The notes beneath the pieces are model-generated. The model was not told the DNA's origin and searched no databases. It was given only the letters and a program-made list of their open reading frames with translations. This document shows positions 2-46,382 of a stretch of 64,000 nt of DNA, piece after piece. The position numbers were made by a program, and so were the translations under genes. The stretch is from Acinetobacter albensis (GTDB taxonomy: Bacteria > Pseudomonadota > Gammaproteobacteria > Pseudomonadales > Moraxellaceae), in the NCBI RefSeq assembly GCF_900095025.1, contig NZ_FMBK01000010.1, positions 62,001-126,000 on the forward strand, read 5' to 3'. Within the stretch, counting starts at the first letter, position 1; each line of letters starts with the position of its first letter.

Positions 2-796
2 AGTTTTGACCCTGAACGCATGGATCTCCTGAATTCACAGCTTGAAATTTTCCATCGTTTGGCCCGTAAATATCGGACTCAACCCGAACATCTTCAACAA
101 GATTATTTGAATTGGCAAACAGAGCTTGAGCAGCTGCATCAACTTGAAAACCCTGAAACTTTGGCTGAACAAGTTGATTTGTCTTATCAAACATTTTTAA
201 ATAAAGCACAATATCTTGATCAAATTCGTCGTGAAGCGGCTTTGCCTTTAGCAAAACACTTGACCGAACAAGTTAAACAACTGGCTTTGCCTGAAGCTTA
301 TTTTGAATTTAAATTTGAACCTTTAGAGCAAGCTTCAGCGGAAGGCCTGAGTTTTATTCAACTGTTGTTCACAGCCAATAAAGGTATGCCTGCACAACCG
401 TTAGCACGTGTTGCATCGGGAGGTGAACTTTCACGAATTGCTTTGGTCATGCAAGTCATGAATGCTGAAAAAACAGAATCTGAAGTTTTAGTGTTTGATG
501 AAATTGATGTTGGTATCAGTGGTGGTACAGCTGAAATGGTGGGACGTTTACTGGCAGATTTGGCACAACATGTTCAAATTTTATGTATTACCCATCAGGC
601 ACAAGTTGCGGCGCAATCTGATCAACACTTATTGGTAAAAAAACGACAAACAGACCCTGCCAGCAGTACCATTATCAGTCTTGCGGAAGAACAGCGTATT
701 GATGAATTAGCGCGGATGACAGGTGGCATGGAAATTAACGACACCACTTTACAACATGCTAAACAATTACGACAGCTCAAGTTTCAGCAGGTATAA
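2..796 (+). CDS. recN: DNA repair protein RecN, C-terminal part
   Basis: This is the 3' end of recN; the frame is open to the left edge, so the N-terminal part lies outside the window. RecN is an SMC-like ATPase that acts on DNA double-strand breaks and helps RecA-dependent repair. The fragment starts in the coiled-coil region, rich in Glu, Gln and Leu. It then shows the ABC-type signature ASGGELSR near base 413, the Walker B block LVFDEIDVGISGG near base 490, and the switch motif ITHQAQVAAQSD near base 590. Together these make the distal half of the ATPase head. About 115 bases separate it from yqgE, which has its own strong ribosome site. Confidence 0.95.
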   Translation, partial: SFDPERMDLLNSQLEIFHRLARKYRTQPEHLQQDYLNWQTELEQLHQLENPETLAEQVDLSYQTFLNKAQYLDQIRREAALPLAKHLTEQVKQLALPEAYFEFKFEPLEQASAEGLSFIQLLFTANKGMPAQPLARVASGGELSRIALVMQVMNAEKTESEVLVFDEIDVGISGGTAEMVGRLLADLAQHVQILCITHQAQVAAQSDQHLLVKKRQTDPASSTIISLAEEQRIDELARMTGGMEINDTTLQHAKQLRQLKFQQV

Positions 797-42722: not shown

Positions 42723-43382
42723 TTATTTCAAGAAACCATTTTCGGCTAGAAAAGCCATACTTAATTTAGAAGTTTGCTGTGTATCAGCTGCTTGATCACC
42801 CAACATTAAACGTTCGATATAACGAGCCAAAACATCCACTTCTAAATTGACTTTTACACCCGTTTTCCACGTGCCGATATTGGTTCGATCTGCAGTATGT
42901 GGAATCAAATTCAGGCTAATGATATTGCCGCGCAAATGATTAATGGTCAGACTAATGCCATCAACCGTCACGGAGCCCTTTTCGGCCAAATATTTGGCAA
43001 TTTCAGCAGGTGCAGTCACTTCATAATAAATTGAACGCGCATCTTCACGTACAACAGTAATTTCGCCCACAGCATCGACATGTCCACTGACAATATGCCC
43101 ACCAAAACGTGTGGTTGGTAACATTGCCTTTTCAACATTAACGCGCTGCCCAACTTTCCAAGTGCCAAGCGTAGTACGGTTTAAACTTTCACGCGATACA
43201 TCGGCTGCATACCAGTTTTCACCCCATTCAATCACGGTTAAACAAATACCATTGGTGGCAATCGAATCCCCTAAATGTACATCCGACATGTCTAACTCAG
43301 TTCCAATTCGTAAACGGACATCACCACCTACGCTTTGTACGCTTTCCACTTTGCCTAAGCTTTCAATAATACCTGTAAACAT
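42723..43382 (-). CDS. ribE: Riboflavin synthase, alpha subunit
   Basis: A 219-residue riboflavin synthase made of two lumazine-binding repeats: MFTGIIESLGKVESV at the N-terminus and IPHTADRTNIGTWKTGVKVNLEVDVLARYIER in the C-terminal half. GRD-type substrate loops appear as GGHIVSGHVDAVG and LAEKGSVTVDGISLT. It dismutates lumazine to riboflavin. An earlier in-frame start would add 14 residues before the universal MFTGII. It follows the methylase by 28 bases and is the last gene of the nrdR-ribD-methylase-ribE set. Confidence 0.96.
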   Translation of the reverse strand: MFTGIIESLGKVESVQSVGGDVRLRIGTELDMSDVHLGDSIATNGICLTVIEWGENWYAADVSRESLNRTTLGTWKVGQRVNVEKAMLPTTRFGGHIVSGHVDAVGEITVVREDARSIYYEVTAPAEIAKYLAEKGSVTVDGISLTINHLRGNIISLNLIPHTADRTNIGTWKTGVKVNLEVDVLARYIERLMLGDQAADTQQTSKLSMAFLAENGFLK

Positions 43383-43410: not shown

Positions 43411-44703
43411 TTACCACAAAGCAAGTTGTGTACTTACACCAGTGGTATCAACACCGCCCAATTCGGCAAAATGATATAACTGACCTAAAAGTTGGCGTAG
43501 CGGTGGTCCAGATTTGGCATGTGTATCAGTAATTACAATAAATTCTAACACTCGGGCGCGTTCTGATTGACGCTGCTTACTCACCCGATAACGTGGCACA
43601 TCTTGAGTGAGTAAAGTGACCCGCCCACGTTTTAAATTGGCTTGCAATAAATCTGCGGCCTCAATATTACCATCGGTTGAATAACTGGTCAGAATATAAC
43701 GTGCGTTGATGGTAGCCACCAACTTTTCATAAGCTTCTTTGGCATACTTAGAAGAATTGTACTGACTTGGGCGCTCTTTACGCCATGCACGATCAATTCC
43801 GCTTTTAAACCCTTTAGTGTCTGGGGTAGGTAAATCGACCTGATCCCACAGGGTCAAAGCGTTTAACACATGATAATTACTGCTATAGGCATGCTGATTA
43901 TAAGGTGGATCAAGATAAGCCACATCCACCTCAAAAGTACGCATTTGATTGGCCAAATGTTGTGCATCCACACACCACATTTCTGCAGCAGGTTTTTTCG
44001 GTTCACCCATCGGACAAAAGCGACTCGGTGTGAGCCACAGTAACGATTCAATTCGCTCTAAAGCGGTTTGAGTTTTCCCCCCCCAACCATGGTGAAAACT
44101 TTTAAATACACCACTCGTGTTACTGACAAAACTGGCCGAATACAATAACGGGGCCAGCAAAGCCGACATTTCAACATCGTCAATCGCGCCTTGCGCCTGC
44201 CAAGTGGCAATTTGCTGACGAATCGCATCAATCCGCATCCCATTGCGTCGTTTAAAAAACAAACGATCACGAGAAGGATCATAAATTTCATCATTACGTG
44301 GGCAGAGGTTATGCGTCACCCAGCCTTTCACTTCAGGCAAGCGGTTTAAGTAATCAATCGCTTTTTGATAACCACCTAACTCCTTAAAAGCAGGTGCTTC
44401 TGTACAAGATAAAATAGCACTGTTTAAAGCATGACTATAGGGTTCCCAATCATTGGCAATCACCCGATAACCATTTTGACGGGCCAAACGTGAAACCACG
44501 CCTGAACCTGCGAAAAAGTCCGCAAAAATGGGCGAACGACCATTTTTGCTATTTAAAGTTCCTGTACTCTCAAGTGCTTCTAAAATAAGATGCAACAAAC
44601 GACGCTTATTGCCTAAATATGGAACAAGCTGATTAAAAAGATATTCGTCTGTGGTACGTGCTGAATGACGACGCTTATGATAAACCGAAGACTCTGAATT
44701 CAT
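43411..44703 (-). CDS. Orphan DNA N6-adenine methyltransferase (D12 class)
   Basis: A 430-residue enzyme with the D12-class layout: PYLGNKRRLL (28-37), the SAM motif DFFAGSG (62-68), a variable recognition region (about 90-255) and the catalytic DPPY (265-268). It methylates adenine N6 in a short DNA site. No restriction gene is beside it, so it is an orphan. Its ATG overlaps the ribD stop by four bases (ATGA), and ribE follows closely, so it is embedded in a riboflavin operon. From memory, unverified, it may correspond to the A. baumannii AamA enzyme reported to modify GAATTC. Confidence 0.88.
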   Translation of the reverse strand: MNSESSVYHKRRHSARTTDEYLFNQLVPYLGNKRRLLHLILEALESTGTLNSKNGRSPIFADFFAGSGVVSRLARQNGYRVIANDWEPYSHALNSAILSCTEAPAFKELGGYQKAIDYLNRLPEVKGWVTHNLCPRNDEIYDPSRDRLFFKRRNGMRIDAIRQQIATWQAQGAIDDVEMSALLAPLLYSASFVSNTSGVFKSFHHGWGGKTQTALERIESLLWLTPSRFCPMGEPKKPAAEMWCVDAQHLANQMRTFEVDVAYLDPPYNQHAYSSNYHVLNALTLWDQVDLPTPDTKGFKSGIDRAWRKERPSQYNSSKYAKEAYEKLVATINARYILTSYSTDGNIEAADLLQANLKRGRVTLLTQDVPRYRVSKQRQSERARVLEFIVITDTHAKSGPPLRQLLGQLYHFAELGGVDTTGVSTQLALW

Positions 44704-45803
44704 ATTGTCTCTTGGAAAGGAATTAACCTTAAGCGCACATCATTGCCCAACTGGGTAACATCTATAAGCTTAAATCGAAGTTGCTCTGCCATACAGGTAA
44801 AATCTGCATTAAACATTGCACGTGCTGTTTGACCTAAAAAAGTCGGGGCAACATAACTGATCATCTCATCAACCAAATGCTGTTGTAAAAAAGCAGTAGA
44901 TAATGTTGCTCCAGCCTCCACCATCACATCATAAATTTGGTGCTGTGTCGCTAGAGTATGCAACAAGTCTGTTAAAGACTGGATGCTAAATTGTAGCACG
45001 CCTAAATCTGCAAGCTCCTGACGAAAAGGCCCCATAACCATCACCGTTTCAGGCTGCTGTAATATTGTCGCATGAAGCGGCAAACGTCCTTGACGATCAA
45101 GGACTAAGCGTTTCGGTTGAACAACAGTACTTAGATCAGCTACGCCGTCTAATTGACGCACATTCAGCTGACAATCATCTGCAAGCACCGTTTCAATTCC
45201 TGTAATCACAACACTGGAAATCGCTCGCCAGTGTTGTACATCTTGGCGCGCTAAAGCTGAAGTGATCCATTTCGACTCGCCCGATGCCATCGCGGTACGA
45301 CCATCTAAACTAGACGCTACTTTTAAACGTACATAAGGCATGCCGGTTGCCATGGCTTTTAAAAATCCAAGATTTAATTGACGAGCTTCTATTTCACATA
45401 GCCCGACTTCAACATGGATGCCAGCCTCTTTTAAAATTTGTACACCTTTGCCTGCCACCAATGGATTGGGGTCAGAACATGCCACGATGACTTTAGCAAC
45501 GCCCGCTTCCACCAAACTTTTGGCACAAGGTGGTGTCCGACCATAGTGTGCACAAGGTTCTAAAGTCACATAGGCTGTTGCCCCTTGTGCAAGCTTACCT
45601 GCCTGACGCAAAGCAAAGACTTCTGCATGGGGTTGTCCAGCTTGAGGATGAAAACCTTCCCCGACGGATTGACCGTCTTTAACAATTACACAGCCAACAT
45701 TCGGATTGGGCTTGGTTGAGTAACAGCCAAGACGTGCCAATTCAATTGCACGTTGCATCCACCTATGATCATGCTGAATAGAGTCTTGGCTGAACTTAGA
45801 CAT
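44700..45803 (-). CDS. ribD: Bifunctional riboflavin biosynthesis protein RibD
   Basis: A 367-residue fusion. The N-terminal deaminase (about 10-145) has the zinc motif HAEVFAL and PCAHYGRTPPC; the C-terminal reductase (about 155-365) has RLKVASSLDGRTAMASGESKWITS and VMVEAGATLSTAFL. It catalyses two consecutive steps from the GTP cyclohydrolase II product toward lumazine. A longer start would overlap nrdR; the ATG used here lies 10 bases after the nrdR stop codon. It overlaps the methylase gene. Confidence 0.95.
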   Translation of the reverse strand: MSKFSQDSIQHDHRWMQRAIELARLGCYSTKPNPNVGCVIVKDGQSVGEGFHPQAGQPHAEVFALRQAGKLAQGATAYVTLEPCAHYGRTPPCAKSLVEAGVAKVIVACSDPNPLVAGKGVQILKEAGIHVEVGLCEIEARQLNLGFLKAMATGMPYVRLKVASSLDGRTAMASGESKWITSALARQDVQHWRAISSVVITGIETVLADDCQLNVRQLDGVADLSTVVQPKRLVLDRQGRLPLHATILQQPETVMVMGPFRQELADLGVLQFSIQSLTDLLHTLATQHQIYDVMVEAGATLSTAFLQQHLVDEMISYVAPTFLGQTARAMFNADFTCMAEQLRFKLIDVTQLGNDVRLRLIPFQETI

Positions 45804-45813
45804 CTTTAAACTC

Positions 45814-46272
45814 TTAATGTTCACGTTGTTGCATTTGTTCAATTTGATCTCGAAATGCTTCTACATCTTGAAAGTCTTGATAAACCGAAGCAAAACGCAC
45901 ATAGGCCACATGGTCAAGGGCAAACAAGGATTGCATAACAATTTCCCCAATGGTACGTGATTTGACATCACGTTCCCCCAAACGACGAATTTGTAATTGA
46001 ATATCGCTGAGTACAGTTTCAATTTGCTCTTGTGTCACAGGACGTTTTTGTAGCGCATGCATCAAGGAACGACGCATTTTCGCTTCATCAAAAGGTTCAC
46101 TTTTACCATCAGATTTTATGACCCGCGGCATCACAACTTCATAAGTTTCAAAGGTGGTAAAACGTTCTCCGCAACTGATACATTCACGACGGCGACGAAT
46201 CTGACAACCTTCGGCTGCCAATCGTGAATCAATCACTTTACTATCTGAGGCGTTGCAAAATGGGCAATGCAT
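45814..46272 (-). CDS. nrdR: Transcriptional repressor NrdR
   Basis: A 152-residue regulator with an N-terminal zinc ribbon ([15 protein letters not shown] and [17 protein letters not shown]) and an ATP-cone (about residues 49-139, with [23 protein letters not shown]). It senses ATP/dATP and represses ribonucleotide reductase genes through NrdR boxes. nrdR-ribD is a frequent neighbour pair in proteobacteria. Confidence 0.97.
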
Positions 46273-46351: not shown

Positions 46352-46382
46352 GGAAAAAAAACAGCCCTTTCGGGCTGTTTCA
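46352..46382 (-). terminator. Intrinsic terminator after amtB
   Basis: Stem AACAGCCC / GGGCTGTT with a 4-base loop. On the minus strand it is followed by eight T residues and lies about 30 bases after the amtB stop codon. Confidence 0.9.

Follow-up and report, generated by a model that had tools for sequence, protein, structure and literature searches.

In Caulobacter, the orphan adenine methylase CcrM, a member of another methylase class than the enzyme described here, is tied to the replication cycle, and in E. coli the datA and DARS loci are intergenic DnaA-box loci that lie outside oriC. Related abstracts are PMC3973325 for CcrM and PMC4585315 for datA and DARS. The Dam-SeqA system of E. 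coli places adenine methylation on palindromes that are clustered at oriC, beside DnaA boxes (PMC13201069). The closest described enzyme is AamA (A1S_0222) of A. baumannii ATCC 17978, an orphan adenine methylase that has nrdR named among its neighbors (PMC10483419). Our background on AamA comes from parts of PMC10483419, PMC10287943, PMC7997844, PMC9769888, PMC10249906, PMC13201069, PMC13227989, PMC8891609 and PMC12016153.

AamA acts in vitro on GAATTC, and its in vivo SMRT motif, TNTNAATTNAAA, was narrowed by the authors to TTTRAATTYAAA (PMC10483419). Two SMRT runs gave 59 and 41 methylated sites, respectively, and the aamA mutant gave none (PMC10483419). The motif TTTRAATTYAAA was recovered again from nanopore data, and another study found related motifs to be only partly methylated in every strain tested. 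The ATCC 17978 aamA mutant has a growth defect (PMC10483419); in the growth column of a transposon study, the aamA mutant is entered as Y for ATCC 17978 and N for strain 29D2. Methylation reaches its highest density and strength in two places of the published map, region 1 and region 2, the second of which lies upstream of dnaA and takes in rnpA (PMC10483419). Transcripts of dnaA, rnpA and pitA are raised 1.5-2.4-fold in the mutant, and complementation left them short of a return to wild-type levels (PMC10483419). Across the transcriptome, approximately 700 genes are down and 94 are up, and the sites, which are mostly extragenic, were read as promoter switches (PMC10483419). The main text of that paper mentions replication, SeqA and CcrM generally and uses the term oriC 0 times, and we found no description there of the origin arrays or their DnaA boxes.

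The window, a stretch of 64,000 nucleotides from Acinetobacter albensis, carries on its minus strand an orphan D12-class N6-adenine DNA methyltransferase gene, aamA (43411..44703), whose open reading frame starts with ATG and encodes 430 residues. The product matches MethyltransfD12 (PF02086) with an E-value of 1.8e-24 and 87.3 bits against a curated cut-off of 22, and its translation contains PYLGNK, FAGSG and DPPY, bearing out the assignment to the D12 class that the sequence-only reading had made. FAGSG and DPPY are unchanged across eight homologues, save one with FSGSG. AamA is the sole PF02086 match in the window's own genome, which excludes Dam for that one genome. A Foldseek search with an AamA model (8-sequence input, pLDDT 67.7) gave no match at E <= 0.001, and a profile search returned just short matches to the RsrI and MboIIA methylases.

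PADLOC ranks a Type II methyltransferase model first for AamA (E 5.9e-117, as compared to 3.9e-21 for its orphan model), as would suit a remnant or a part of a restriction or phage defence system. The gene is also one of the hits with raised phage Loki susceptibility in a transposon screen, reported by its authors without confirmation (PMC10249906). However, inspection of the listed open reading frames of at least 80 residues between 38000 and 50000 revealed no adjacent restriction gene, in agreement with the orphan status first proposed; some 30 sites per genome, clustered as they are, would give no protection; and the gene has a fixed place in the nrdR-ribD unit throughout the genus. We consider a role in defence very unlikely.

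That unit, all of it on the minus strand, is headed by nrdR (45814..46272; TIGR00244 above cut-off) and continues with ribD (44700..45803; TIGR00326 above cut-off, with a start codon of our own choosing), aamA and the riboflavin synthase gene ribE (42723..43382; TIGR00187 above cut-off). The start codon of aamA overlaps the TGA stop codon of ribD by 4 nt (44700..44703, TCAT on the plus strand and thus ATGA in the coding sense), and the ATG of ribE, at 43382, follows the aamA stop codon after 28 bp; both points had been claimed and hold. A terminator-like stem on the same strand 5' of nrdR (46358..46381), found by a consensus scan and by itself no evidence of function, is the probable boundary between an amtB-like gene and the nrdR-ribD-aamA-ribE unit. 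The same scan gave 7 promoter-like sites in the operon versus 8.5 in shuffles, which is no excess, and 7 terminator-like sites versus 3.9 (sd 2.0), several of them within the aamA coding sequence. The operon is likely transcribed straight through from nrdR to ribE. A GAATTC, the sequence on which AamA acts in vitro, overlaps the aamA start codon (ATGAATTC, in the region 44698-44703); autoregulation through it was considered and rejected, because no more than 27 of the 80 named loci compared (the best 80 among 193) have the site.

For conservation we used a draw of 299 Moraxellaceae genomes, 126 of them Acinetobacter, the window's own included. An AamA orthologue with 82-100% identity is present in 125 of the 126 Acinetobacter genomes and in all 4 of a sister genus, g10, whereas identity does not exceed 57% for the homologues in the remaining Moraxellaceae genera, some of which gave no match. 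The exception, G298, was considered as an Acinetobacter that lacks aamA and has arrays of target sites, and rejected; its ribD match is absent as well and only a weak hit is found, which points to a probable assembly gap. An A. baumannii-labelled record (L219), used for this comparison in place of the A1S_0222 sequence itself, is 92% identical to the window's AamA over all 430 residues. With the conservation of the orthologue and the nrdR neighbor as published, this makes the methylase very probably the known Acinetobacter orphan enzyme AamA, as the sequence-only reading had suspected, and the gene is hence not new. A locus labelled A. baylyi DSM 14961 (L223) has aamA as well. The N6-adenine methylation that this reading expected of it is in print for A. 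baumannii, where the wild type has the motif methylated and the aamA mutant does not (PMC10483419). In six complete genomes (G201, G073, G161, G221, G235 and G251), aamA is origin-proximal, approximately 210-330 kb from dnaA.

The order nrdR-ribD-aamA was found in 40 of 40 clade loci examined, the window's own included. When the best 80 of 193 named Acinetobacter loci are compared, ribD, aamA and ribE occur in that order in all 80, nrdR is within reach in 79, and the ATGA overlap is kept in 77. Of these 80 loci, 56 have 10-49 bp between aamA and ribE, 6 have 80-259 bp and 18 have approximately 1.3-1.4 kb, where the extra length is presumably a gene; the distance is approximately 0.4-0.6 kb in g10 and G235, and in G101 no ribE was found within 4 kb after aamA. 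Since the overlap is kept in 77 of these 80 loci and the ribE gap varies, the coupling to ribD is stable and that to ribE is not; the ribD-methylase-ribE order proposed for Moraxellaceae is kept across Acinetobacter. It had been suggested that, through its translational coupling to ribD, DNA methylation is tied to the supply of the vitamin or to the state of growth, and the conserved overlap speaks for this. Against it, the spacing to ribE is variable, the approximately 50%-identical homologues of other genera lie outside the operon and away from rib genes, and the targets show no riboflavin link and concentrate at the replication origin instead. We regard this suggestion as extremely improbable.

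The window itself holds a single AamA-type site, TTTGAATTTAAA (302..313, with no strand assigned), which is isolated and at chance level (0.30 sites expected; at least one in 26 of 100 shuffles). The arrays of this genome lie outside the 64-kb window on another contig (G000:C29, L047-L049). The whole-genome totals are less striking, with 28 sites for TTTRAATTYAAA and 23 for the reversed pattern. Fourteen of the 28 are on contig C29, which carries dnaA, dnaN, recF and gyrB, and all 14 lie within 18 kb of dnaA. They form an oriC group of 4 sites in the dnaA-rnpA interval, a main array of 6 sites in the interval between purK and a lytic transglycosylase (SLT_2) gene, 17.6-17.9 kb from dnaA, and a gyrB-side group of 4 sites beyond gyrB, approximately 7 kb to the other side of dnaA. 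DnaA boxes are interspersed among these sites. The sites of the published motif cluster in the window's genome in the same way as those of A1S_0222. We link region 1 of the published map to the purK-transglycosylase array and region 2 to oriC, by counts and gene names and not by coordinates: the 28-29 and 9 methylated sites reported for them compare with 14 and 4 palindromes in G201, equal to 28 and 8 adenines.

Clustering at the origin recurs across the clade. We sought dnaA in 75 genomes and took windows of approximately 40 kb around it (25 kb for G026) from 30 further genomes; the clade is represented by 18 origin windows (17 Acinetobacter and 1 g10). They contain 203 of the 488 genome-wide sites where 5.7 would be expected (genome sizes being rounded except for G000), and the other 285 lie outside them. 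Sites in oriC, upstream of dnaA, are present in all 18, with 2-7 in each; the weakest case is G129, with 2 (p 0.02). In 17 of the 18 windows the cumulative GC-skew minimum is no more than 1.5 kb away from the start of dnaA, and in G171 it is 14.5 kb off. Eleven of the 18 have a main array, made up of 6-14 sites, in the purK-transglycosylase interval at 14-25 kb on one side, and 6 have gyrB-side groups of 2-5 sites approximately 7 kb to the other side. Ten genomes were looked at separately, and four of them have the main array further off, at approximately 39 kb from dnaA in G292, 54 kb in G257, 67 kb in G191 and 124 kb in G113; none was seen in G028, G286, G129, G231 or G101, where the pair search described below could miss loose arrays. 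When all 12-mers of the 17 Acinetobacter origin windows are counted without bias, TTTAAATTCAAA comes out as the most frequent, with 116 occurrences. Relatives that lack aamA have a site in 0 of 10 origin windows, and three windows of genera with the approximately 50%-identical homologues have 0, 0 and 1 sites. These last three were also inspected by eye and by 12-mer counts for a changed motif, which revealed many DnaA boxes and no palindrome array. In G004, G012 and G020, which belong to genera with such homologues, the coding region of mnmE holds a group of 2-6 strict DnaA boxes, approximately 3.95 kb upstream of dnaA (L084-L088).

We searched all 299 Moraxellaceae genomes for two sites at most 30 bp apart. 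Such pairs occur in 122 of 126 Acinetobacter and 4 of 4 g10 genomes and in none of the 169 other Moraxellaceae, and reversed-pattern control pairs occur in 3 of 299, one in each. Four Acinetobacter genomes are without a pair. In G288, 11 of the 27 sites are no further than 22 kb from dnaA but are spaced differently; G197 combines one oriC site with 4 sites at a distance of 18.5-18.8 kb from dnaA; the oriC of G087 contains two sites; and in G048 dnaA is broken by a contig end. Since aamA and the arrays both mark a single clade, their association counts only once phylogenetically. An origin of the arrays in base composition was considered and rejected, given the rarity of reversed pairs, the lack of DnaA boxes in AT-rich windows and the absence of sites from the 10 windows of aamA-less relatives.

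The DnaA boxes distinguish the arrays from the sequence around them. With TTATCCACA as the strict DnaA box and at least 2 sites as the definition of an array outside oriC, the 18 non-oriC arrays of the 18 windows (9,578 bp) contain 34 strict boxes, or 3.55 per kb, with at least one in each array and often just 1-4. The remaining 696,808 bp contain 5 (0.007 per kb), and AT-rich control windows contain none in 139. A second set of 20 regions was assembled from places among the matches listed in the pair search and from the separate look at 10 genomes. Strict boxes are present in 10 of its 10 purK-transglycosylase arrays, in its one oriC region and in one of its two gyrB-side arrays, the one without being that of L244. 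Boxes are thus found in 11 of 12 origin-region arrays outside oriC, whereas of the 7 clusters at a distance from the origin 1 has a box, and because of this difference we distinguish two classes of cluster, of which the origin class is tied to DnaA. In L246, L235, L238 and L230, far from oriC, 4-5 AamA-type sites lie inside a SAM-dependent methyltransferase-like open reading frame; these clusters are mostly without DnaA boxes and perhaps correspond to region 12 of the published map, to judge from the name smtA.

In the published reading, AamA is a regulator of gene expression and its sites are promoter switches for genes such as dnaA, rnpA, that for the transglycosylase and those of the trmD operon, and do not contribute to the timing of replication. 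The broad transcriptome changes and mostly extragenic sites (PMC10483419) agree with this, as do the 6 of 7 clusters away from the origin that lack DnaA boxes and the position of the main array, usually upstream of the transglycosylase gene. However, ordinary promoter sites would not be expected to cluster at the origin, as these do in 18 of 18 windows, or to form arrays with DnaA boxes, and in G113 neither purK nor the transglycosylase gene was matched within 1.5 kb of the main array. We find the promoter reading unlikely.

The array sites also vary less than the AT bases that separate them. In hand-chosen alignments with G201 as reference, site conservation is 93% versus 79% for the AT bases between sites among three close genomes, 78% versus 54% for AT spacer bases among seven genomes, and 84% versus 67% in the oriC of thirteen genomes. 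Start-to-start spacings range from 6 to approximately 145 bp, with 25 and 36-37 bp frequent, and G201, G073 and G161 each have four oriC sites that are 122-128 bp apart. A CRISPR array was considered and rejected, as the near-equal spacers of one are absent over this range of spacings. Repeats of A. baumannii that resemble AamA sites, ATTTTGAATTTAAAA and TTTTAAATTCAAAAT, are tabulated as CRISPR arrays (PMC8891609 Table 1), and from their sequences these are probably origin arrays.

Arrays in which palindromes recur at favored distances, with DnaA boxes between them in the neighborhood of the origin, could also be a chromosome landmark bound by an origin-positioning or nucleoid protein, with AamA methylation secondary or modulating. 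Frequent in the same windows are palindromes of the CACGTG type, which we take to be ParB-site-like, though they differ in sequence from the AamA sites. The presence of DnaA boxes within the arrays argues for initiation and not for segregation, however, and no binding protein is known, so that a landmark of this kind seems to us rather improbable.

Set beside the known systems, the gene and the motif are already known, and the origin arrays with their DnaA boxes appear to be new: in the main texts of the open-access literature searched, we found no description of either. Like Dam, AamA has palindromic targets clustered at oriC by DnaA boxes; unlike the 4-bp GATC of Dam, the clustered target TTTRAATTYAAA is a rare 12-bp AT-rich palindrome. 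A search of 60 Acinetobacter genomes found SeqA in none and MutH in none, with an E. coli control positive for both, and Acinetobacter has in addition satellite arrays that hold DnaA boxes. These resemble datA and DARS in being DnaA-box clusters outside oriC (18 of 18 arrays) and differ in their dense methylation palindromes and in the lack of an IHF-like site. The IHF consensus occurs 0 times in 9,578 bp of arrays where approximately 2 would be expected (12 in 57,000 bp of control), which makes this a weak test. The arrays can be likened to datA and DARS but not identified with them. CcrM, likewise an orphan adenine methylase, has a GANTC motif that is spread through the genome, whereas AamA sites lie in origin arrays.

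Because the origin palindromes interleave with DnaA boxes, we propose, as the most economical reading, a module for replication control in which AamA sets the state. We lean, with some reserve, towards the reading that AamA methylates such a module at the origin and would be, in function, a convergent counterpart of Dam at oriC. AamA would be made from the nrdR-ribD-aamA(-ribE) gene unit and would act on the long, rare, palindromic TTTRAATTYAAA, maintained in arrays at the replication origin. Passage of the fork would leave the arrays hemimethylated, the origin palindromes first in each round, and the methylation state of an array could then alter the binding of DnaA or of a separate reader. 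Altered binding may in turn control dnaA expression and re-initiation, with titration of DnaA as another possible consequence, and all of this would take place in a genus without SeqA or MutH. Since neither of these was found, another reader, or DnaA itself, would be needed. Our observations concern the place and conservation of the targets, their association with DnaA boxes and the lack of SeqA and MutH; the reader, the timing of hemimethylation and any effect on initiation are what we infer. More tentatively, at somewhat less than an even chance, the methylated oriC and its satellite DnaA-box arrays may form an independently evolved origin-licensing clock that times the next initiation. In such a clock, a genus-specific reader or DnaA would tell the methylation states apart, and the system would use unrelated DNA signals to do what Dam-SeqA and the DnaA-titrating loci do.

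Acinetobacter is a major hospital genus. With few AamA targets, largely at the origin, the system would offer a direct handle on replication timing in bacteria that lack SeqA. A role at the origin could also be the one cause behind both the poor growth of the aamA mutant and its wide shifts in expression, so far read as many separate promoter effects, and the finding may correct the CRISPR annotation of such arrays.
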